From Draconibacterium orientale (lineage in GTDB: Bacteria > Bacteroidota > Bacteroidia > Bacteroidales > UBA1556), in the NCBI GenBank assembly GCA_022736595.1, contig DZDC01000007.1, forward strand, positions 1 through 34,028: a DNA stretch of 34,028 nt, written 5' to 3'. Under the pieces are notes generated by a model. That model did not search any database, was not told the origin of the DNA, and saw only the letters and a list, made by a program, of their open reading frames with translations. This document shows, piece by piece, positions 6,941-25,934 of the stretch. Within the stretch, counting starts at the first letter, position 1. Each line of letters starts with the position of its first letter. Both the position numbers and the translations under genes were made by a program.

Positions 6941-9900
6941 CTACAATCTTATTCCTATCACCAGAACATCATCAATTTGCTCAATGCTCCCTCTCCATTT
7001 TATTAATTGATTATCAAGAATTTGATTTGATTCTTCACCCATTTTTTGGGGTAATTGAAGCAACAATTCTTTGAAGCGTTTCGACATTAATTTCTTTCCA
7101 TCAGCTCCTCCAAATTGGTCAATATAGCCATCTGTTGAAATATATAAGCAATCGCCTTCTTCCAGTTGCAATTCTTTGGTGGTAAATGGAATGTTCATTC
7201 GCTCTGAAACTCCAATGGGCATCCGATCGGCTTTAACTTCAATAAGGCGATTTTGGAAAACTGAATATCCAAATTCAAAATCGATTTTGGATTCATCTAC
7301 TTCATGAGATTTTACTATATACAAGGAATTATAAGCCCCGGCAAACTTTACGTTTCTGGTTTTAGGGTCGATACTTAGAAGTGCAATATCCAGTCCATCC
7401 TTACTTTGCGTATCGCCACTTTGCTTTAGATCGGTAATGATATCGGTACGCATGTGGTTCAATATTTCAGCAGGATCTGTAATTTGCTTTTCTTTAACTA
7501 CTTTATTAAGAGAACTTATACTTATCATGCTCATGAAAGCCCCTGGTACTCCATGCCCTGTACAATCTGCAGCCGCCACGATGAGACGTTGCTTATAAAA
7601 TGTATTCCAATGAAAATCACCACTTACAATATCTTTAGGGCGATAGAACACATGGAATGCACTTAAAACTTTTGCCATGGTATCGTGGGGTGGCAATACC
7701 GCTCTTTGAATGCGTTGAGCATAGTTGATACTATCGGTAATGTCTTTATTCTTTTGAGCGAGAAGTTCGTTCTTATGACTTATTTCAATGGTACGCTCCT
7801 TAACCTTTTGTTCTAATTCAGCTTTTTCCTGTTTAAGTTGACGCTCGCGAACTTTCACAAAAATGACGATGGATATAATTAAAACCAAAGCTGCCAATGT
7901 ATAAAACCATAGCGTTTGCCAAAAAGGAGGTCTTATAGTAAACTTAAGTTGCTGTGGCACTTTGTTCCATATTCCATTATTGTTTTGAGCCATCACTTCA
8001 AAAACGTAATCGCCAGGGGGAAGGGCTGGAAAATTGGCATAAGTCTGATTGGTCGAAGGTTGCCATTCGTTTTGAGCTCCCAACAATCGTACTTTATAAG
8101 CTACTTTTGAAGCATCAGAAATACAAATGGATTTAAAATCAATCAGAATTGAATTTTGAGTATAGCTAAAAACCAATTGATCTGTCATTTCAACATCTTG
8201 AAGGTTAACTCTCAATCTTGTAATTAGTGTAATTGGCTCTAACTTATTAATTGTCAATAATTTCGTATTAATTTCAGTGACTCCTGCAGAAGTTCCACAC
8301 CAGATCAAACCTTTGGAGTCGATATAAACAGCCGAGGGTTTTACTTCTACTCCAATAAATCCAGTATTTGCATCAAAAAACTGTAAATCATTGGTTTTCA
8401 AATTATATACATTCAATCCATTATTGGTTCCGATGATTAAGTTGCCTATTTTATCCAAGGCCAATCCCGAAATAAGGTTGGACCTTAGGCCATTTTCTAA
8501 GGTAAAGTGAGATTTTATGGTCTTATTTTTTACCAAATATAAACCCATTCCTTCAGTTCCAACCCATAGGGAAGCCTCATTTCCAAAAATAGCGGTAGGT
8601 GTAATATTTACTCCAAATGAATAAGGTTTAACATCCGAACCTTTTATCTTGGTTAATCCTTTTTCACGGTGTCCTACCCACAGAACGCCTTCACTATCAT
8701 AATATAAAGCCGAAATGTCATTATTAACTAAACCTGAACTTTGGGTTAATCGTTCTAATCGACCAGATTCGGGTTCATAATACAGCAAGCCATCATAAGT
8801 ACCTACCCAAACATGGTCTTTACCATCAATTTCCATGGCAGTTACATTGGCACTATTGGTTGACATCATAATCATATTAGTTAGATCCAATGCCAATTTC
8901 ATCCTTTTTGCTTTAACACTATAATATGAAACTCCACCACCCCAAGTACCAATCCACATATTGCCCAATTTATCCTTCTTAATAAATCGTATATCATTGG
9001 ATTGCAAGTCAATGTCGTCCTTAACAATAGTTTTTAAAGAACTTACCTTTTCATTTTCCACTTTAGCAATATAGACACCCACATTGCTACCAAACCAATA
9101 TTCATTATCAACAGATGCAATGGATTGTATTTGTACTGGCTTATTATTGGACATTTGATAATAGTTGCGGAAAGCAAATCCTTTAAAAATCAGTAAGCCT
9201 TTGGAATAAGTTCCAATAAGCACATTACCTTCACGATCCGAAGTAATGCAATTGATCTTATCGTCAATCAATCCATTGGCTTCATTAAAGGTAGTAATCT
9301 TACCCTCGTGAAACAAGGAAATGCCGCCACCGTGGGTACCCACCCATGTACGATGGTATTGGTCGGTGAAAATTTCGCTAACCCAATTGGAAGCTAATCC
9401 ATCACGTTGATCATATATTTTTGGAACTGCGTTAATATTGGAATAATAGTAAAGTCCACCATTATAAGTTCCAACCCAAAAACCACCTTTATTATCTTCA
9501 TGAACTTTTATAATACTAAAATATTGGGGCCAGTTGAAAAACATCTCATTAACAAACTCATACTTATTTGTTTTAGAATTCAAATATTTAACGCCGTACC
9601 TCGTAACAAAAAGCATCCCGAGTGAAGGTGAATTGCTCATGGAGAATACATTATTGGAAAGGCCATTCGATTCATTAAGAATGGTATCCACATGAATGAT
9701 TTTGGCATTAGGATCATCAATGCAATAAACACCACTTTCAAGAGTAGCAATGTAAAGGCGCCCATTTTTGTCTACCTTTATATCTGTAATATCCCCTTTA
9801 ACTTTCTTGAGTACTATTTGTTGAAACTTTTTATTTCTATAAACCGACAAGCCTCCAGAAAAATGGCCCACCCAAATTGCCTCATTGGAGTCGGTATAAA

Positions 9901-10171
9901 CGACACTCACCCCTAAGGGAGCAATCCCATCTTCCACATTGAAATTTGTAAAACGTTCTCCATCAAATTTACTTAGACCGCTTTGGGTTCCTATCCATAT
10001 AAACCCGTCTGAAGTTTGAATTATCGACTTGACTTTGGTATGACCAAGACCTTGTTTTACATTATAGTTTTCAAAAAAATACTGCTGAGCTTGGACTTTC
10101 AATCCACACGCAACCAACAATATTAAAAAATTCAAAACAAAAATCGAATTAAAGACTATATGCTTTTTCAT
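6941..10171 (-). CDS. Propeller sensor with PP2C/SpoIIE phosphatase output (SiaA-like)
   Basis: The protein has 1076 residues. An N-terminal signal sequence runs over about 1-28. A double beta propeller of Reg_prop repeats covers about 30-660 (recurrent IWIGT, LWVGT, GLIWCGT strands). A Y_Y_Y domain lies at about 690-749, a membrane helix at 755-773 and a coiled coil at 775-815. The C-terminal PPM/SpoIIE phosphatase domain runs from about 820 to 1076. Metal-binding acidic positions are visible in VSGDFHW (Asp852), AADCTGHGVPG (Asp869), YISTDGYID (Asp1014) and QIDDVLV (1067-1068). The propeller should sense a periplasmic signal and the phosphatase act in the cytoplasm on the SiaC-like protein. 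The domain set is that of hybrid two-component sensors, but with phosphatase output in place of a histidine kinase. It is the first gene of the cassette, after the caspase gene's terminator. Confidence 0.88.
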   Translation of the reverse strand: MKKHIVFNSIFVLNFLILLVACGLKVQAQQYFFENYNVKQGLGHTKVKSIIQTSDGFIWIGTQSGLSKFDGERFTNFNVEDGIAPLGVSVVYTDSNEAIWVGHFSGGLSVYRNKKFQQIVLKKVKGDITDIKVDKNGRLYIATLESGVYCIDDPNAKIIHVDTILNESNGLSNNVFSMSNSPSLGMLFVTRYGVKYLNSKTNKYEFVNEMFFNWPQYFSIIKVHEDNKGGFWVGTYNGGLYYYSNINAVPKIYDQRDGLASNWVSEIFTDQYHRTWVGTHGGGISLFHEGKITTFNEANGLIDDKINCITSDREGNVLIGTYSKGLLIFKGFAFRNYYQMSNNKPVQIQSIASVDNEYWFGSNVGVYIAKVENEKVSSLKTIVKDDIDLQSNDIRFIKKDKLGNMWIGTWGGGVSYYSVKAKRMKLALDLTNMIMMSTNSANVTAMEIDGKDHVWVGTYDGLLYYEPESGRLERLTQSSGLVNNDISALYYDSEGVLWVGHREKGLTKIKGSDVKPYSFGVNITPTAIFGNEASLWVGTEGMGLYLVKNKTIKSHFTLENGLRSNLISGLALDKIGNLIIGTNNGLNVYNLKTNDLQFFDANTGFIGVEVKPSAVYIDSKGLIWCGTSAGVTEINTKLLTINKLEPITLITRLRVNLQDVEMTDQLVFSYTQNSILIDFKSICISDASKVAYKVRLLGAQNEWQPSTNQTYANFPALPPGDYVFEVMAQNNNGIWNKVPQQLKFTIRPPFWQTLWFYTLAALVLIISIVIFVKVRERQLKQEKAELEQKVKERTIEISHKNELLAQKNKDITDSINYAQRIQRAVLPPHDTMAKVLSAFHVFYRPKDIVSGDFHWNTFYKQRLIVAAADCTGHGVPGAFMSMISISSLNKVVKEKQITDPAEILNHMRTDIITDLKQSGDTQSKDGLDIALLSIDPKTRNVKFAGAYNSLYIVKSHEVDESKIDFEFGYSVFQNRLIEVKADRMPIGVSERMNIPFTTKELQLEEGDCLYISTDGYIDQFGGADGKKLMSKRFKELLLQLPQKMGEESNQILDNQLIKWRGSIEQIDDVLVIGIRL

Positions 10172-10258: not shown

Positions 10259-12607
10259 TTATTTGCGTATAAAAAAGAACGTTCCATTTTCATCAGCCAG
10301 CCCATCGATTTTTCCAAACTGGGGAGCTTGCTGGTTGTTCTTGACTACTGCTGATTTTACAGATTTAACAATGGACTCGATAGGGATACAGGAATTGGGA
10401 TTATGAATAAGTGAATTAGCAAAGGTTTTGGTAAATTGAGAGTTATCGGAGGCTAATTCGTAGCCAGCAGAACTAAATACCTGGCTCGACTTAAACTTTG
10501 TAGCTTTCCAATCGGCACAGTCTCTTTCAATAATATCTGATCTCATTGCTTGATAAAAAGAAGGCCCAGATTCACAAGCATCGGTAATTACCAACGTATG
10601 AGTGATGACAGAGCTGTAGCTATTCATAGAGGCTTTAAGGGCAGTGATATTAAAATAAGTAAATTCGTCATCAGTTTTGCCGTCAACAGGAATCCAATAT
10701 CCAGTGCTATTTATAAATTTCCCATGACCCGCGTACCATACAATGATGGAGCTAACCCTATTCTTAATTACTAGATCGCGCAATTCGATGGAAAAGAATT
10801 TCTCCATTTGATTTTTGGTCATATTCCTCTTATGAATCACATTATTGATGTTGTAGTTAGATAGTGCCGATTTCATCATGGTGATATCTTTTGTGGGGCC
10901 ACTAAGCGAAGCAAATGTGCTATACTCTGAATTTTCTATAAATACAACCCATGTTTTTCCCATTGGATTTTCGGTAGCAATAGCCGCTCCCTCTCGATTA
11001 AGAAGAAATTCCTTAATGGATTTATTTCCATAAATATCTATAACCTCAACGGTAATTTTAGTCTTATTTGCAATGCTAACCGTAGCCGCAAAAGCAGGAT
11101 TCAAAGTGGAAGGAATATAGCTTGCATTTACACTATCGATCTGAACACTAGCAATCTTACTTTCATCGGTAATTGCACCTTCGATAAACAAACTGTTGGT
11201 ATTGGCTTCGAGGTAAATTTGTCCATCGTCAGAAGGAACGGGCGATATCAAAGCAATTATTGGGGCATTAATTTCGGTACGTTCGATGGGATAAACATCG
11301 GCACGAACGTTATCATAAACATCCTTGGCGACAATCTTAATTTCAGTAGCTTCAGCCACATTAATATTGGCTACAAATTCGTTAATTCGAGAGGTACTAT
11401 CAAACTTTACATCCACACCATTAATCGAAAACGATTTTATTGGGCTTTGATCATCTACTCTTCCAACAATTTCTTGAACTTCCTTACCTTTGATAATTTG
11501 CATTTTCTTGGAAGCATTAATTACTGGTGCATCAATAACTATAACAGGTTTTGCATTCTCTCTTTTAAGCTCAAATAGTCTAACTTCTGCATCAGCAATC
11601 ATTTTTACTGCAGCAGCATCGGTTAGACCTAAGGTTTTCAATTTTTCATAGTCTGCTATTGCTTTATCAAAATTCTGAATTTCCTCGTACGAAGCAGCTC
11701 TATTAAAATAAGCAGGATAATATTGTGGATCGAGGCTCATGACACTCGTAAAGTCATTAATAGCACTGGTATGTTGTTTGAAGTCGTAATAAATACCCCC
11801 GCGTTTGAAAAATACATCTTTCAAAAAAGGATCGTTGGGATATAATACTATTATCTGGGATAAATCGTTGATGGCATTAATATAATCCATTTTCTTGTGA
11901 TAAGCTAAGGCTCTAATCCAATAAGCTTGCATACTGCGTTGATCGATACCCATGGCTGAATTGGCACTCATTATCGTTTGGTCGAATAGATTTTGATAAA
12001 AATAAGTATTAGCTAATCCTAAATATCCTTCAATGTTTTTTGGATCCATACCAATGGCCAATTGATAATAATTTTGAGCATCAACATACTTTTGGCTTGC
12101 ATAAAGAACCGTGGCTTTGTCAAAATAGGCTTGATAGTTCTTTTTAACTTCAAGTGCTTTGTTTGCAGTTTCGAGTGCTTCATCAAATCTACTCATTGCG
12201 TGCAACGACATCACTTTGTAATGAAATGCTGGCAAACTTTTCTTATCTAAAAGTAAAGTTTTATCAGCATATTTAACTGAACTTTCATATTGATTCAAAG
12301 TGTATGAAATCTCAGTCAATTTTAAAGTGTACTCCTCAGATTTTGGGTCAAGGATGGATGCACGTTCGTAGTCTAAAAGTGCTTTATTTAACTCAGTAAT
12401 ATTTACATAAGCTTTAGCACGCGCTACAAAAGCATCCGCATTATTAGGTTCAAGTTCTAAGGCTTTAGTAAAATTCTCAATTGCATCTTGGTAGCTTTTA
12501 CTTTCAGCAAAGGTTTCACCAGTTTTTAAAAACTTCTTTGCATTTTGACCATACAAAATAGTGGTAGTCAATAGTAAAATAATTAGGAAGGGTATTTGTG
12601 ATTTCAT
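10259..12607 (-). CDS. Exported TPR protein with C-terminal caspase-like (peptidase C14) domain
   Basis: The protein has 782 residues. A signal peptide ends near LYGQ at residue 21. About nine TPR-like repeats follow (roughly 24-345, with the pattern DAIENFTKALELEPNNADAF). Two beta domains come next (about 375-440 and 460-540, the second with DIYGNKSIKEF, typical of bacterial Ig-like folds). The caspase-hemoglobinase domain starts near KTWVVFIENSEYS at 551. The catalytic dyad is visible as YAGHG (His628) and DACESG (Cys678). Such proteins are exported or periplasmic in Bacteroidota, and substrates are mostly unknown. It has its own terminator, and a -7 element lies 41 bases upstream of the start. 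The adjacent signalling cassette may be coincidence. Confidence 0.87.
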   Translation of the reverse strand: MKSQIPFLIILLLTTTILYGQNAKKFLKTGETFAESKSYQDAIENFTKALELEPNNADAFVARAKAYVNITELNKALLDYERASILDPKSEEYTLKLTEISYTLNQYESSVKYADKTLLLDKKSLPAFHYKVMSLHAMSRFDEALETANKALEVKKNYQAYFDKATVLYASQKYVDAQNYYQLAIGMDPKNIEGYLGLANTYFYQNLFDQTIMSANSAMGIDQRSMQAYWIRALAYHKKMDYINAINDLSQIIVLYPNDPFLKDVFFKRGGIYYDFKQHTSAINDFTSVMSLDPQYYPAYFNRAASYEEIQNFDKAIADYEKLKTLGLTDAAAVKMIADAEVRLFELKRENAKPVIVIDAPVINASKKMQIIKGKEVQEIVGRVDDQSPIKSFSINGVDVKFDSTSRINEFVANINVAEATEIKIVAKDVYDNVRADVYPIERTEINAPIIALISPVPSDDGQIYLEANTNSLFIEGAITDESKIASVQIDSVNASYIPSTLNPAFAATVSIANKTKITVEVIDIYGNKSIKEFLLNREGAAIATENPMGKTWVVFIENSEYSTFASLSGPTKDITMMKSALSNYNINNVIHKRNMTKNQMEKFFSIELRDLVIKNRVSSIIVWYAGHGKFINSTGYWIPVDGKTDDEFTYFNITALKASMNSYSSVITHTLVITDACESGPSFYQAMRSDIIERDCADWKATKFKSSQVFSSAGYELASDNSQFTKTFANSLIHNPNSCIPIESIVKSVKSAVVKNNQQAPQFGKIDGLADENGTFFFIRK

Positions 12608-20225: not shown

Positions 20226-22628
20226 CTAATCTTTTATACCCCGAAGTAACCATTGCGAAGCTATGGTTACAAAAGCCACCACTGTAACCGAGCTAATTGG
20301 CATTAAAACTGCGGCTATTACTGGCGACAAAGTACCACTTACCGCAAAACTCAATCCAACCACATTGTACAAAAACGAGATACCGTAACTTAAGTACAAA
20401 ATTCTAATCGATTTCTTTGATTTGCTAATGAATTTGGACAAATAATGAATCTGAGACGACTCCAAAATTGCATCGGATGCAGGACTAAAATTAAATACAT
20501 CATCGGCAATACTAATGCCCACATAACTTTCTTTTAAAGCTCCAGCATCGTTGAGCCCATCGCCTACCATCATTACATACTTCCCTTGTTCATTCAGTTT
20601 CTTTACATAATTGAATTTATCTAATGGACTTTGATTAAAATAAATTTGAGCTGATTTTCCAAAGATCGACCTAAGGTTCTCTTCTTCAGCATTGTTATCA
20701 CCAGATATAAGATGAATTTCAAATTTTTCAGTAAGTGCTGTGGCAAGCTCCTTAATTCCTTCACGGTATTTATTTTCAATACTATAATACCCCATATACT
20801 GTTGATCGATATTGACATGAACGACCGCTTTAAGGTGAGAAATATGGTCACTCATTGGAGAACCACAAAACTCGGCATTACCCATCTTAAGTAACACGCC
20901 AGAGAGCGATCCTTTAATTCCTGACGAAGCAATTTCCATAAAATCGGAGATGTCATCGATTAAATCTGCATCCAAATCCAAATACTCATTGATGGCTTTA
21001 CTTAGAGGATGTTGACTTTGGCGGGCTAAACTCTTAATCCAAATAAGTTGATGTGTACTTAAATCAGCACCGTGGTAGGTAACACTATTGGCATCAATTT
21101 GGGTAATGGTTCCAGTTTTATCAAAGACTATGGTATCAATTTTAGCTAAATCTTCGATCACTTCAGATTTTCGAAGATAAAATCCCAATTGACCAAAAAG
21201 GCGCATGATATTTCCAAAAGTAAATGGAATACTTAATGCTAATGCACAGGGACAAGCTACTATCAAAACGCTGGAAAAAGCAATAAGAGCCAAAGAAGGA
21301 TCCACCAATAACCAAAAAGTAATCGCAGCAAAAGCAATAAATAGAATAACTGCGGTAAAGCGGTTGCTTATTTTATCAATCATTTTGCTGAGTTGTTCGT
21401 GCGTTCCTCCCGATTTACCATCTTGATTCCACAGTTGGGTCAAACGCGATTGCAGTACTTCCTTTATCACTTCAATGGTAATGGCACTGCCTATTTGTTT
21501 GCCTCCTGCATAAAGTTCGTCGCCAGATCGTTTAGTAACAGGCTTGGATTCTCCGGTAACAAAGCTGTAGTTGATATTAGCTTCTCCAGAGATTAGTATT
21601 CCATCGGCAGGTATAAGTTCCTGATTATGCACCACCAACCGATCTCCTACTTGAATGGTATTCAAAGGTATTATTTCCTCTTTTTCATTCACCTTTTTGG
21701 TTACAGCAATGGGGAAATAGGATTTATAATCTCGTTCAAAGCTAAGGGCTTGATAGGTTTTGTTCTGATACCATTTGCCAATAAGTAAGAAAAATACTAA
21801 GCCAGCAAGACTATCCATATAGCCAGTACCAGTGGAAGTAAATATCTCGTAGCTACTTTGCAAGAAGATGGCCAAAATACCGATGCTGATAGGAAAATCG
21901 ATATTTATGATTTTATGTTTAAGATTTTTGTAGGCGGAAAGAAGATAATCCACACCAGAATAAAAAACGATAGGTAGCGAAAAAAGTAAATTTAAATAAC
22001 CAAAGAAATGCTTAAAATTAGACTCTAAAAGATCTCCACCTGGCACATAATCGGGCAAACTGAGCAGCATGGTATTTCCAAAAACAAATCCCGCCACTCC
22101 AATCTTAATAACCAAAGAACGATTATCGCTTTTGTTTTTTTGCTGGGTAACGCTATCCATGCTGATCATGGGAATGTAGTGAATGCTAGCAAGCAACTCC
22201 ACCACTTTTCTCAAACTAATTTCATTGATTTTAAAAGTAATATCGACTTCCTTTTTAACAAAATTAACGGAACTTTGCGTGATGGAACGGTTGAGCTGAA
22301 AAAGATTTTCGAGCAACCAGATGCAACTGCTGCAATGAATTTCTGGAATATACAATTTTACTTTCGCGTATTCACCTTCTTTAAAATAAATCAGTTGATT
22401 TAGGATGTCCTCATTATCGAGGTATGCATATTTTTTTCCAAATTCTTGAACATCAACCTTAATTCCAGGGCTTTGATAAAGATCATAATAACCTGTTAAC
22501 TTGTTTTCGTTCAGCAATTGATAAACAGTTTTGCAACCCTCACAGCAGAAATTTTTTCCTTGCCAGGTTACAGGATATCTTCCACAATCCTCACCACAAT
22601 GGTCACATTTAATTGAAGATTCAGCCAT
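20226..22628 (-). CDS. ccoI: Copper-translocating P-type ATPase, CcoI/FixI type
   Basis: The protein has 800 residues. The N-terminal cysteine-rich region (CDHCGEDCG and FCCEGCK, residues 8-32) is followed by an HMA-like domain with CSSC at 99-102. The P1B-ATPase core has TGES at 358-361, CPC at 459-461 in the metal-binding membrane helix, the phosphorylation motif DKTGT at 503-507, the HP pair at 540-541 and GDGLND at 689-694. YN in the penultimate helix and MPISS in the last fit Cu+ transporters. The cysteine-rich N terminus plus HMA arrangement is that of CcoI/FixI, which exports copper for cbb3 oxidase assembly. ccoS and the oxidase genes are not in the window. The cytochrome/NrfD/iron-sulfur module is immediately upstream, behind a terminator. 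Confidence 0.88.
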   Translation of the reverse strand: MAESSIKCDHCGEDCGRYPVTWQGKNFCCEGCKTVYQLLNENKLTGYYDLYQSPGIKVDVQEFGKKYAYLDNEDILNQLIYFKEGEYAKVKLYIPEIHCSSCIWLLENLFQLNRSITQSSVNFVKKEVDITFKINEISLRKVVELLASIHYIPMISMDSVTQQKNKSDNRSLVIKIGVAGFVFGNTMLLSLPDYVPGGDLLESNFKHFFGYLNLLFSLPIVFYSGVDYLLSAYKNLKHKIINIDFPISIGILAIFLQSSYEIFTSTGTGYMDSLAGLVFFLLIGKWYQNKTYQALSFERDYKSYFPIAVTKKVNEKEEIIPLNTIQVGDRLVVHNQELIPADGILISGEANINYSFVTGESKPVTKRSGDELYAGGKQIGSAITIEVIKEVLQSRLTQLWNQDGKSGGTHEQLSKMIDKISNRFTAVILFIAFAAITFWLLVDPSLALIAFSSVLIVACPCALALSIPFTFGNIMRLFGQLGFYLRKSEVIEDLAKIDTIVFDKTGTITQIDANSVTYHGADLSTHQLIWIKSLARQSQHPLSKAINEYLDLDADLIDDISDFMEIASSGIKGSLSGVLLKMGNAEFCGSPMSDHISHLKAVVHVNIDQQYMGYYSIENKYREGIKELATALTEKFEIHLISGDNNAEEENLRSIFGKSAQIYFNQSPLDKFNYVKKLNEQGKYVMMVGDGLNDAGALKESYVGISIADDVFNFSPASDAILESSQIHYLSKFISKSKKSIRILYLSYGISFLYNVVGLSFAVSGTLSPVIAAVLMPISSVTVVAFVTIASQWLLRGIKD

Positions 22629-22641
22629 AGTATATTAACTT

Positions 22642-22674
22642 AAAAAAGAAGGGTAGCCCTTGAGTGACTACCCT
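22642..22674 (-). terminator. Terminator between the cytochrome c gene and the copper ATPase gene
   Basis: On the minus strand AGGGTAG pairs with CTACCCT around an 11-base loop, followed by TCTTTTTT. It fills the gap before the ATPase start at 22628, and I see no promoter after it, so partial read-through is likely. Confidence 0.65.
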
Positions 22675-22699: not shown

Positions 22700-23596
22700 T
22701 TATCTTTCGCGAAGCATCCAAATGCGGAACAATTGCAAAATAGTCCATCCAATGGTAGCAAGCACTCCTAAAACCACAGTTACATAAGTAATTAGCAACC
22801 AAAGCGGAGTATTAGCGCTTGTGCCCCAAAGTTCACGTTTATCGAGGGGATTATGATAAATCCATGCTTTTCTGGTTTGGAGTTGAGCTTCGACAGAAAC
22901 AGCTTTATCGGAAGTTTGAGCTACAACAGTAACAAAACCTGATGTATCCGCTTTAAAATTGGCGTCGGTTAAGATCGCTTGACCTTTATCATTGGTTTTA
23001 ACACCTTGGGCAATGGGCAACATTCCAAACGAACGTTTTACCAAAAAGTCAATTTTTACATTTTTAGCGAAGGTAGGATTACCCGCCAAATCCACAGCAG
23101 TAAGTTGTGCAATCATTTGTTTTTGAGCTGTGTCGTAGCTAATTGTAATGGCTTTGATAGTTCCTTCAAATTTTTCAGCAGCAGCTGACACATCTCCCGA
23201 AGCAGTACTAGGAACGTAAGCTGGATCTAGGCTACGAATGTAGCTGATTACTTTCCAACGGTCTTCGTCTGAAAGAACAGCTCCAAAGGGAGGCATGCCC
23301 CCTTTTCCTTTTGAAAGTTTGGCAAACATTTCTCCATCATTGCTTCGAGCTTGAATGTCCTTGGCTCCCAAATTTGGTGCTAAAGGAAGTTTACGATCAT
23401 TAGCCGCTATGGAAGTAGCTTCAGCATGACAAACTTTACAAAATTTATCATAAACACCTTTACCAGCGGTTTGATTGGCCTCATCAAATGAAATAGTCAT
23501 TTTCATTTCTTTCTCTTCAGGCGTAATTGACCAATCTTGAGCATTTAGTTGAAGCCCAGCAGCCAACAAAAACAAAGTTATATATCTTGTATTCAT
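22700..23596 (-). CDS. Membrane-anchored monohaem cytochrome c
   Basis: The protein has 298 residues. A signal peptide ends near LNAQ at residue 20. The class I cytochrome c domain has the haem motif CKVCH at 53-57 and a likely axial Met in GGMPPFG at Met101. Then come ISYIRSLDPAY, a beta-rich segment at about 140-245, and a C-terminal membrane helix at about 262-290 (PLWLLITYVTVVLGVLATIGW). It should face the periplasm and accept electrons. It is the third gene of the iron-sulfur/NrfD/cytochrome group, 20 bases after the NrfD gene. The middle beta-rich domain is not recognised. Confidence 0.85.
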   Translation of the reverse strand: MNTRYITLFLLAAGLQLNAQDWSITPEEKEMKMTISFDEANQTAGKGVYDKFCKVCHAEATSIAANDRKLPLAPNLGAKDIQARSNDGEMFAKLSKGKGGMPPFGAVLSDEDRWKVISYIRSLDPAYVPSTASGDVSAAAEKFEGTIKAITISYDTAQKQMIAQLTAVDLAGNPTFAKNVKIDFLVKRSFGMLPIAQGVKTNDKGQAILTDANFKADTSGFVTVVAQTSDKAVSVEAQLQTRKAWIYHNPLDKRELWGTSANTPLWLLITYVTVVLGVLATIGWTILQLFRIWMLRER

Positions 23597-23616: not shown

Positions 23617-24966
23617 TTATAAATTCTTTTCAATTTCAACACCTTTTTCATGGGCAGTTTCCCAGATGGGAACCACAGGAAACAACTTCACTAAGATGGT
23701 AAAAATCAAAACCGATATTGCAATAACACCTATGGTAATGGTGATTTCAATGCCTGTGGGATGATACACATGAAACTCATGAGGAACATTCTGAATAGGC
23801 AAATGGGCATGTACCATGGTTGGGATTACGATTATGAAGCGTTTAAACCATGCTCCTAAAACCACAGCAACACCAATAAGCATCATGGGGAGCGGTTTAC
23901 GGAAAGGTTTGAAAATACTCAAGATTAATGGCAAAATCAAGCCACCGATTTGAGTAGCCCAAAACATGAAAGCATATTCACCAGTAAACAAAGTTTTAAT
24001 GTGAATGGCATCATAAGTTTTCATTTTATAAGCCGGAACCAGAAACTCGTTAAGATTGAAATACAGATAGATAAGGCTTACTAGAACTAGTAATTTTCCC
24101 ATCATATTGAAACTTTCGTCGGTGATGTATTCTTGCAACTTATATCCTCTACGAACAAAATACATGGCCACCAATACAGCACCTGTACCTGCAACAAAAG
24201 CACCACTGATATAGTAAGGGCCAAAAATAGTGCTATCCCATCCTGGTCGGAGGGTGAGTGCACTTAACCAAGAAGTTACGGTATGAATGGCAAAGGCGAC
24301 AGGGATTACTAAAACCAATAAAACACGAATGGCGCTGTGCAGAATTTTGTACTGATTTGGAGTCCCAACCCAACCTAATGAAAGGAGGTTGTAGATGGTC
24401 CATTGCCATTTTGGGATATCCTTTTTGAGGTGATTGCGCATAATGCCCAGATCGGGAAGCAGCGGCAAAAACAATAGCAAGGTACTAATCAAAACGTAAA
24501 CTGTCACTACGGTAATGTCCCAAAAAATGGGCGAAGAAAAGCGACCGTGGAGAAACACATTCAGCAGTCGATCAGGACGCCCCATATCCACCACGATGAT
24601 AATACCCGCCATCATTACAAAAGAAAGAGCGACCATCTCGGCAATACGTGAAACAGGAATGATCCATTTTTTTCCAAGTAGCCCAACTATTGCCGAAATC
24701 AACATTCCTACCAAGGAGGTAGCTACGAAGAAAACAAAAGTAGCAATGTACATACCCCAACTCACGTAATCGCGCATGGCAGTAACTGCTAAACCATTAT
24801 TAAGTTGCAAGAAATAGCCATAAGCAGCAGCAATAATAAGAGTTACTAAAAATGCCACCCAAAGCTTATAACTCAATGATATCGACTGTACAGGACGCAA
24901 TAAATCTTCACGTATTTTATTGAAGATTAGCGCTTGTTCCTGTGGACTTTTATGTTCAGTAATCAT
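23617..24966 (-). CDS. NrfD/PsrC-type integral membrane quinol-interacting subunit
   Basis: This 449-residue protein has about ten hydrophobic helices and matches the NrfD family (also ActC of alternative complex III and PsrC). Recognisable segments are WGMYIATFVFFVATSLVGMLIS, MGRPDRLLNVFLHGRFSSP and HSAIRVLLVLVIPVAFAIHTVTSW. Members exchange electrons between the membrane quinone pool and a partner iron-sulfur protein. It is encoded 35 bases after the iron-sulfur subunit and 20 before the cytochrome c. No molybdopterin catalytic subunit is adjacent. Confidence 0.88.
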   Translation of the reverse strand: MITEHKSPQEQALIFNKIREDLLRPVQSISLSYKLWVAFLVTLIIAAAYGYFLQLNNGLAVTAMRDYVSWGMYIATFVFFVATSLVGMLISAIVGLLGKKWIIPVSRIAEMVALSFVMMAGIIIVVDMGRPDRLLNVFLHGRFSSPIFWDITVVTVYVLISTLLLFLPLLPDLGIMRNHLKKDIPKWQWTIYNLLSLGWVGTPNQYKILHSAIRVLLVLVIPVAFAIHTVTSWLSALTLRPGWDSTIFGPYYISGAFVAGTGAVLVAMYFVRRGYKLQEYITDESFNMMGKLLVLVSLIYLYFNLNEFLVPAYKMKTYDAIHIKTLFTGEYAFMFWATQIGGLILPLILSIFKPFRKPLPMMLIGVAVVLGAWFKRFIIVIPTMVHAHLPIQNVPHEFHVYHPTGIEITITIGVIAISVLIFTILVKLFPVVPIWETAHEKGVEIEKNL

Positions 24967-25001: not shown

Positions 25002-25934
25002 CTATCCGTGGTGTTCTTCCTCTTCGCCCAAGTAATTAAGCTCGGTGTTTTCGTAATCAAACAAGCGATCTTTGGGAGGCAAATAATACACGCTAGGTTT
25101 GGTGCCCAATTCAGGCATCAGGGTATAAGCTCCATTTTGTTCCAAAAGCGTGCTTAAACGTACGGTCTCTTTGCTGGTTCCGTTGGTAACGGCATCTTCG
25201 TTGGCATCGCCAAACCAGTATGTTCCATTAGGACAAGCCGATACGCAGTAGGGCAACTTTCCTATTCTTAGTCGGTCGGCACTGAAAAGGCATTTAGAAA
25301 TGGTTCCTTTTTTCTGTGGAACATTGAGTTCAATGTCGTAAACGCGATTTTCGTCACCTTCTACCTGTTTGGGTTCGCTCCAATTGAATACACGGGCAGA
25401 GTATGGACAGGCCGCAATGCAAAACCTACATCCAATACAACGCTCATTATCGATAAGTACAATTCCATCTTGGCGCTTGAAAGTGGCATCGACAGGACAA
25501 ACTTTAGTACAAGGAGGATTATCGCAATGTTGACAAGGTTTAGGCATATAAAAAGAGCCTGTTCCCTCGGCATTTTCCATTTGCAGAACATTAATATGAT
25601 GTTGCTCAGGCTTTAAATGATGTGCATCTTGACAAGCCGACATGCACTTGCGCGCATTCCTGCATTTAGCAAGATCGATCACCATCACAAACTTTTTACC
25701 AGTAATTCCTTCGCGACCTCTAACCTGCATTTCTTTGAGGTTAACTTTGAGCTGCGATTTCTTTACTTTTACAGTTTGACCATCGGTGGTTAGCAAATCC
25801 ACCATTTCATCATCATTGCTGCATGAGCTCAAAAAGCCCAAACTCGTGACCACACTAGCCGCTCCAACGGTGAGACCAAACTTTTTCAAAAAATTTCTAC
25901 GGGACGTTACTTCCGGCGTAATATTTTGACTCAT
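25002..25934 (-). CDS. Tat-exported iron-sulfur lipoprotein, DmsB/PsrB-like, two cysteines replaced
   Basis: This 310-residue electron-transfer protein has a twin-arginine signal (SRRNFLKKFG, residues 11-20) and then a lipobox LSSC (Cys38), so it is probably a Tat-exported lipoprotein. Four cluster motifs are present. Motif I is C91/A94/C97/C101 (CRNARKCMSAC), in which the second Cys is Ala. Motif II is C134/C137/C142/C146 and complete. Motif III is C166/C169/C172/C176 and complete. Motif IV is C215/S218/C230/C234 (CLFS), in which the second Cys is Ser. In this family motif I and IV cysteines share two clusters, so both would lack one thiolate. The codons GCG and TCA/TCG-type are unambiguous. 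It is the first gene of the module, followed by NrfD. Confidence 0.87.
   Translation of the reverse strand: MSQNITPEVTSRRNFLKKFGLTVGAASVVTSLGFLSSCSNDDEMVDLLTTDGQTVKVKKSQLKVNLKEMQVRGREGITGKKFVMVIDLAKCRNARKCMSACQDAHHLKPEQHHINVLQMENAEGTGSFYMPKPCQHCDNPPCTKVCPVDATFKRQDGIVLIDNERCIGCRFCIAACPYSARVFNWSEPKQVEGDENRVYDIELNVPQKKGTISKCLFSADRLRIGKLPYCVSACPNGTYWFGDANEDAVTNGTSKETVRLSTLLEQNGAYTLMPELGTKPSVYYLPPKDRLFDYENTELNYLGEEEEHHG

Follow-up and report, generated by a model that had tools for sequence, protein, structure and literature searches.

The window, a stretch of 34,028 nucleotides from Draconibacterium orientale (contig DZDC01000007.1), carries on its minus strand three closely spaced genes for an iron-sulfur protein, an NrfD-family membrane protein and a cytochrome c, referred to below as the triad, next to a gene for a copper ATPase. 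The features on which the analysis draws are as follows.

20226-22628, minus strand: CcoI/FixI-like P1B copper ATPase (cbb3 maturation), a neighbour and not a subunit (profile matches)
22650-22674, minus strand: intrinsic-terminator-like hairpin between the cytochrome c and ATPase genes (9-bp stem plus T run; fold -15.2 kcal/mol, z -2.7)
22700-23596, minus strand: cytochrome c of 298 aa with a monohaem domain, a beta domain and a C-terminal TM anchor (Pfam Cytochrome_CBB3)
23617-24966, minus strand: NrfD-family quinol-binding membrane subunit, 449 aa, 10-TM (Pfam NrfD, 7.7e-32)
25002-25934, minus strand: iron-sulfur subunit, 310 aa, 14 cluster Cys, DsrO/NrfC-like (ORF, profile scores and AF2 fold)
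25233-25292, minus strand: motif IV, C215-L-F-S218 ... C230-VSA-C234, second ligand Ser218 (alignment)
25407-25439, minus strand: motif III, complete, C166/C169/C172/C176 (ORF and alignment; membrane-proximal pair by homology)
25497-25535, minus strand: motif II, complete, C134/C137/C142/C146 (ORF and alignment; membrane-proximal pair by homology)
25590-25598, minus strand: His113 and Asn115, derived residues accompanying Ser218 (W/Y/F and mostly K/R or N in relatives)
25632-25664, minus strand: motif I, C91-R-N-A94-R-K-C97-M-S-A-C101, second ligand Ala94 (alignment)
25821-25904, minus strand: Tat signal SRRNFLK and lipobox-like LSSC (C38) (sequence)

The iron-sulfur protein gene is the first of the triad, with 35 bp between it and the NrfD gene and a further 20 bp before the cytochrome c gene. 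The triad is probably a transcription unit of its own that ends before ccoI, so the CcoI-like neighbour may not be co-transcribed with it. Elsewhere in the window, a large sensor with PorZ-like repeats and a SiaA-like phosphatase match (6941-10171, minus strand) adjoins a gene for a TPR protein whose C-terminal part gives a caspase-like match (10259-12607, minus strand).

The open reading frame bears out the preliminary description of the iron-sulfur protein, in which Ala94 replaces a ligand cysteine of motif I and Ser218 one of motif IV while motifs II and III are intact. It encodes 15 cysteines in total, 14 within the motifs plus C38. The Ala94 codon (GCG, 25653-25655) is two base changes away from a Cys codon, and that of Ser218 (AGT, 25281-25283) a single change from TGT; PsrB from T. 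thermophilus (2vpw_B) and ArrB (6cz7_B) have Cys at both aligned positions. An AF2 model, calculated from 101 family sequences with the signal region removed, reached a pLDDT of 93.7 over residues 72-296, and its fold matches ArrB, PsrB and subunit B of alternative complex III (ACIII) with query-normalised TM scores of about 0.67-0.76. The model thus has the paired ferredoxin-like domains (beta-subunit fold) of CISM/NrfC-type proteins, and the four CxxCxxC-type motifs, which hold 16 Cys in that type, hold 14 here. The protein had also been called a lipoprotein, which is plausible for the window in view of its Tat RR motif and LSSC; across the family, a Tat-like RRxF[LIVM] motif is found in 84 of 97 members but a lipobox-like Cys in just 25 of 97.

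Matches were obtained in 27 of 60 related genomes, including all ten relatives of the same genus (71-90% identity), and a scan of GTDB species genomes gave 582 relatives, the best 80 of which come almost exclusively from Bacteroidales-type genomes, isolates among them. Both substitutions occur in isolate genomes of Draconibacterium, Marinifilum, Maribellus, Ancylomarina and Geofilum. No relatives were found on viral contigs, and plasmids gave distant TtrB/DsrO-like matches only, with at most 37.5% identity among the matches listed. The alignment of 136 homologues shows invariant Cys at 13 of the other 14 ligand positions; the remaining one, the second position of motif III, is Cys in 131 sequences, the exceptions being Thr in five ActB rows. 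The two altered positions behave differently: the second position of motif I is Ala in 97 sequences, Cys in 28, Leu in three and Asp, Val, Glu or Tyr in two each, and that of motif IV is either Ser (97) or Cys (39). Within the clade of 97 sequences with 14 cluster Cys, Ser218 is found throughout, Ala94 in 91, and Cys at each of the other 14 ligand positions in all 97. Neither the open reading frame nor the 136-sequence alignment contains a replacement Cys near the lost ligands, which would have told against the preliminary description. Sequencing or assembly error, conceivable for a window taken from a fragmented MAG of 302 contigs, is ruled out by the same residues in genus relatives and about 80 further loci from independent genomes, isolates included, and chance variation in one protein by the 97 sequences and the single origin of Ser, which leaves these readings a negligible probability.

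A tree inferred with the two variable ligand columns masked supports a single origin of the motif IV Ser (SH-aLRT 99 for the clade), nested in a group that already lacks the motif I Cys. Relatives with 16 and then 15 cluster Cys branch outside this clade, and the relative just outside (L021) keeps all 16. The branching order thus indicates that motif I lost its ligand first, and that motif IV followed later and once. Loss of the motif I Cys takes two events on the tree; a separate lineage (L134 and L136, with their wider stretches L165 and L166) carries Tyr at this position, adjoins NapA-like and tetrahaem (NapB-like) genes, and is a second origin of the loss. Inside this clade of 14-Cys proteins Ala94 has been replaced four times, by Asp, Glu or Val, while Ser218 and the six Cys left in motifs I and IV never change. 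Ser218 is moreover the only unchanged Ser column in the clade; however, 27% of the clade columns are likewise unchanged, so invariance by itself is weak evidence. The pair His113/Asn115 is confined to the same clade, where a second-shell or ligand role is possible.

In the architecture common to DmsB, PsrB, NarH and ActB, motifs I and IV bind two membrane-distal clusters and motifs II and III two clusters near the quinone site, and the absence of the second-Cys ligand in NarH gives a [3Fe-4S] cluster. ActB and QrcC each hold one [3Fe-4S] cluster at the quinone-proximal site (PMC8076601, PMC6303296, PMC5928083). Mycobacterial CXX?XXC ferredoxins are similar in that the second Cys is replaced, including by Ser, and differ in being small, soluble, single-cluster proteins for P450s; those examined carry [3Fe-4S], as found with Ala or Gly at this position and in one case with Ser (PMC6237146). 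The window protein, by comparison with the known cases, alters the distal pair and leaves the proximal pair intact. What had been described as unusual outer clusters can thus be sharpened to the membrane-distal ones, an arrangement different from the precedents, in which a membrane-proximal ligand (motif III) is lost. By analogy, it is most likely that both distal clusters, those of Ala94 and Ser218, are still assembled as [3Fe-4S]. Of the three fates first considered for them ([3Fe-4S], Ser-ligated or lost), loss is unlikely because all other ligands are strictly kept.

Ligation of the motif IV cluster by Ser218 is possible, and in its full form would leave that cluster as [4Fe-4S] with Ser218 as fourth ligand next to a [3Fe-4S] cluster in motif I. 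Serine is able to ligate Fe-S clusters, and the strict retention of the sole unchanged Ser column contrasts with the four changes at Ala94. We nevertheless regard this combination as unlikely, as more than a quarter of the columns are equally invariant and the Ser-containing ferredoxin Fdx9, which has the same motif, was isolated with [3Fe-4S] (PMC6237146). The Ser-type ferredoxin has a low potential (PMC6237146), and the direction of any potential shift in the window protein should therefore not be presumed.

The two partner proteins have their nearest solved relatives in ACIII. Among solved structures the NrfD protein matches best to the ActC chains of this complex (7e-44 to 1e-35), with no PsrC among its matches at E 0.01, and its best NCBIfam model is DsrP, below the curated cut-off. 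At the quinone site, D127, S145 and D150 are invariant in all 76 rows; the proton-path residue R376 is kept in 75 of them, with one gap. The equivalents of ActC Asp169 and Ser164 are conserved, Asp253 is Leu, and D127, which corresponds to DsrP1 Asp106, stands in for ActC His139 as it does in DsrP. For the cytochrome c the best solved relative is ActE of ACIII (1.5e-5). In 73 of 74 family loci the CxxCH motif is encoded by the gene that follows NrfD, such that haem domain and anchor form one protein, whereas in all nine 16- and 15-Cys triads examined the protein at this place carries no haem and a small monohaem cytochrome is encoded separately nearby. Ser218, His113/Asn115 and the haem-anchor fusion appear on the same branch, which fits, and does not prove, an altered electron exit. 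One set of 15-Cys relatives (L160-L164, L158, L159) combines the haem-less anchor protein and separate monohaem cytochrome with a DUF5777 beta-barrel, an ethylbenzene-dehydrogenase-domain protein or multihaem cytochromes, and is a different system.

Respiratory genes adjoin 59 of the 73 complete triads. Downstream lie a caa3-type oxidase with SCO1 (32 loci), cbb3 (12), ccoI alone (1), SCO1 alone (1), and the nitrate reductases NapA (9) and NarG (4), while 14 triads have no respiratory gene in the available stretch; genes for methylmalonyl-CoA mutase (L039), lysine-tRNA ligase (L044), DNA polymerase III delta' (L034) and FtsK (L104) were set aside as unrelated neighbours. The run FeS-NrfD-cytc-ccoI-ccoNO-ccoP-sco1-ctaD-cox3 at locus L177, with the ATPase homologue between the triad and ccoNO-ccoP, links the arrangement of the window to both oxidases. 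In Draconibacterium and Maribellus loci the triad stands between aa3-type genes and cbb3 genes, and at L179 a second triad is followed by narG and a NarH-like gene. Ancylomarina euxinus (L050, L035) and Draconibacterium sediminis (L087, L040) have two triads per genome, one at an oxidase and one at NapA, and each copy shows the two motif losses.

Other contigs of the genome to which the window belongs carry fragments of cbb3 and aa3-type oxidase genes. This genome has only two NrfD matches, the second of which lies in a PsrABC-like Mo-oxidoreductase operon (contig C33 of genome G000, L174). The genus has cytochrome c oxidases; bc1 cytochrome b, ActB and DsrK were looked for in its 11 genomes and not found, nor was any DsrK found over the cut-off in the 60 relatives. 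Outside the genus the triad co-occurs with a c-type oxidase (7/9 vs 7/40, Fisher p 0.001, uncorrected for phylogeny), and among the oxidase genomes there, those with the triad tend to lack ActB and vice versa (p 0.03, n 14, likewise uncorrected). Counterexamples exist: the order-level relatives G026 and G046 have the triad and no c-type oxidase, G020 has cbb3 and neither triad nor ActB, and G047 has both. Some of the gene absences could be explained by MAG incompleteness.

Modules of an iron-sulfur and an NrfD protein are well known, and by the tests run the triad is related to DsrOP and ActBC and is a member of neither. With DsrOP of DsrMKJOP it shares the best NCBIfam models (DsrO and DsrP), the 10-TM NrfD type, the quinone-site Asp and a Tat-exported iron-sulfur protein. 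It differs in scoring below the curated cut-offs (186.8 bits for the iron-sulfur protein against the DsrO model NF045797, cut-off 200, compared with 308.6 for a true DsrO), in its monohaem cytochrome partner and in the lack of a DsrK match in the genus; all 16 cluster Cys are present in a real Bacteroidota DsrO (Chlorobi-like, L169), in contrast to the 14 of the window protein. Membership of DsrMKJOP is ruled out by the sub-cut-off scores, the lack of DsrK and the neighbouring NrfD, cytochrome c and CcoI genes. The likeness to ACIII (ActABCDEF) includes, besides the structural matches to ActC and ActE, the oxidase genes that follow, caa3 among them, and the position in the respiratory chain that we propose for the triad. 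The triad nevertheless has no ActB1 (Mo-like) domain, its iron-sulfur protein stands alone at 310 aa, and the [3Fe-4S]-type loss is in motifs I and IV (distal) rather than in motif III (proximal) as in ACIII; pentahaem ActA, ActD and ActF are absent from the triad and its neighbours at the locus. A canonical ACIII is ruled out by the stand-alone iron-sulfur protein and the lack of an ActB1 match in the genus.

The DsrOhPh-tetrahaem set of cable bacteria also combines DsrO/P homologues with a periplasmic cytochrome c, and has been termed a "candidate alternative complex III", with a proposed role in delivering electrons of quinol to cytochromes in the periplasm (PMC13047784, PMC11976967), but its cytochrome is tetrahaem and that of the triad a membrane-anchored monohaem protein. 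QrcCD, NrfCD and PsrBC are similar as two-subunit redox modules of an iron-sulfur and an NrfD protein (PMC6303296) with the same beta-subunit fold, and differ in their catalytic subunits and, for QrcC, in the proximal location of its [3Fe-4S] cluster. Neither the triad in Bacteroidales nor the ligand pattern was found described in the literature searched, most subscription papers and all preprints lying outside that search.

We consider it likely that the iron-sulfur protein is the periplasmic subunit of a compact menaquinol:cytochrome c oxidoreductase, in which it joins, with its distal clusters kept, a DsrP/ActC-like NrfD protein and an ActE-like anchored monohaem cytochrome c as the DsrO-like component; the preliminary description had missed this proposed setting and its ties to terminal oxidases and nitrate reductases. 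We infer the quinol:cytochrome c activity of the triad from gene context and the types of cluster from the ligand pattern; the potentials, the path and direction of electron flow and any pumping of protons are likewise inferences. Menaquinol would be oxidised at the NrfD site, and electrons would enter the complete motif II and III clusters, membrane-proximal by homology, and pass to the two distal [3Fe-4S] clusters and/or directly to the haem of the anchored cytochrome c, which would in turn supply caa3 or cbb3 oxidases; in the case of paralogous operons it would feed nitrate reductases of the NapA or NarG type. NrfD proteins have been proposed to translocate protons (PMC8076601), and by analogy the triad may do so too.

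Rather improbable, in our view, is that the triad serves another periplasmic partner or runs in reverse as a quinone-reducing system, with the oxidase neighbours reflecting regulatory co-location only. Modules of this type perform both quinol dehydrogenation and quinone reduction (PMC6303296), and the 14 triads whose available stretch has no respiratory neighbour, as well as the 15-Cys relatives beside DUF5777 barrels, ethylbenzene-dehydrogenase-domain proteins or multihaem cytochromes, would suit such a role; the proximity of most triads to oxidase or nitrate reductase genes, and the origin in ACIII of the nearest solved relatives of both partner subunits, argue against it. A further possibility is that the distal clusters are gone and motifs I and IV vestigial, so that the proximal pair would deliver electrons directly to the haem, much as FeS1 in ACIII hands them straight to the ActA haems while FeS2-4 form a wire without a known role (PMC5928083). 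This is very unlikely, given that the six remaining Cys of these motifs stay invariant in 97 of 97 sequences while the second position of motif I drifts.

If the triad is indeed a quinol:cytochrome c oxidoreductase, it would fill an apparent gap, as many Bacteroidota have cytochrome c oxidases and the genus studied here shows neither bc1 cytochrome b nor ActB; the triad is the best candidate for the missing link from quinol to oxidase in this genus. More tentatively, and with somewhat less than even confidence, we propose that an equivalent of complex III with about three subunits and one haem could be the principal, or even the sole, quinol:cytochrome c oxidoreductase in many bacteria of the Bacteroidales type, with an exit via two consecutive [3Fe-4S] clusters that arose by stepwise loss of the same ligand in two motifs, coinciding with the cytochrome-anchor fusion, and with one design serving both oxygen and nitrate reductases. 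The living stages with 16, 15 and 14 ligands offer a natural series on how the loss of single ligands retunes an electron wire. The family also bears on the role of the distal Fe-S wire in ACIII, as the distal clusters are here altered and yet conserved.
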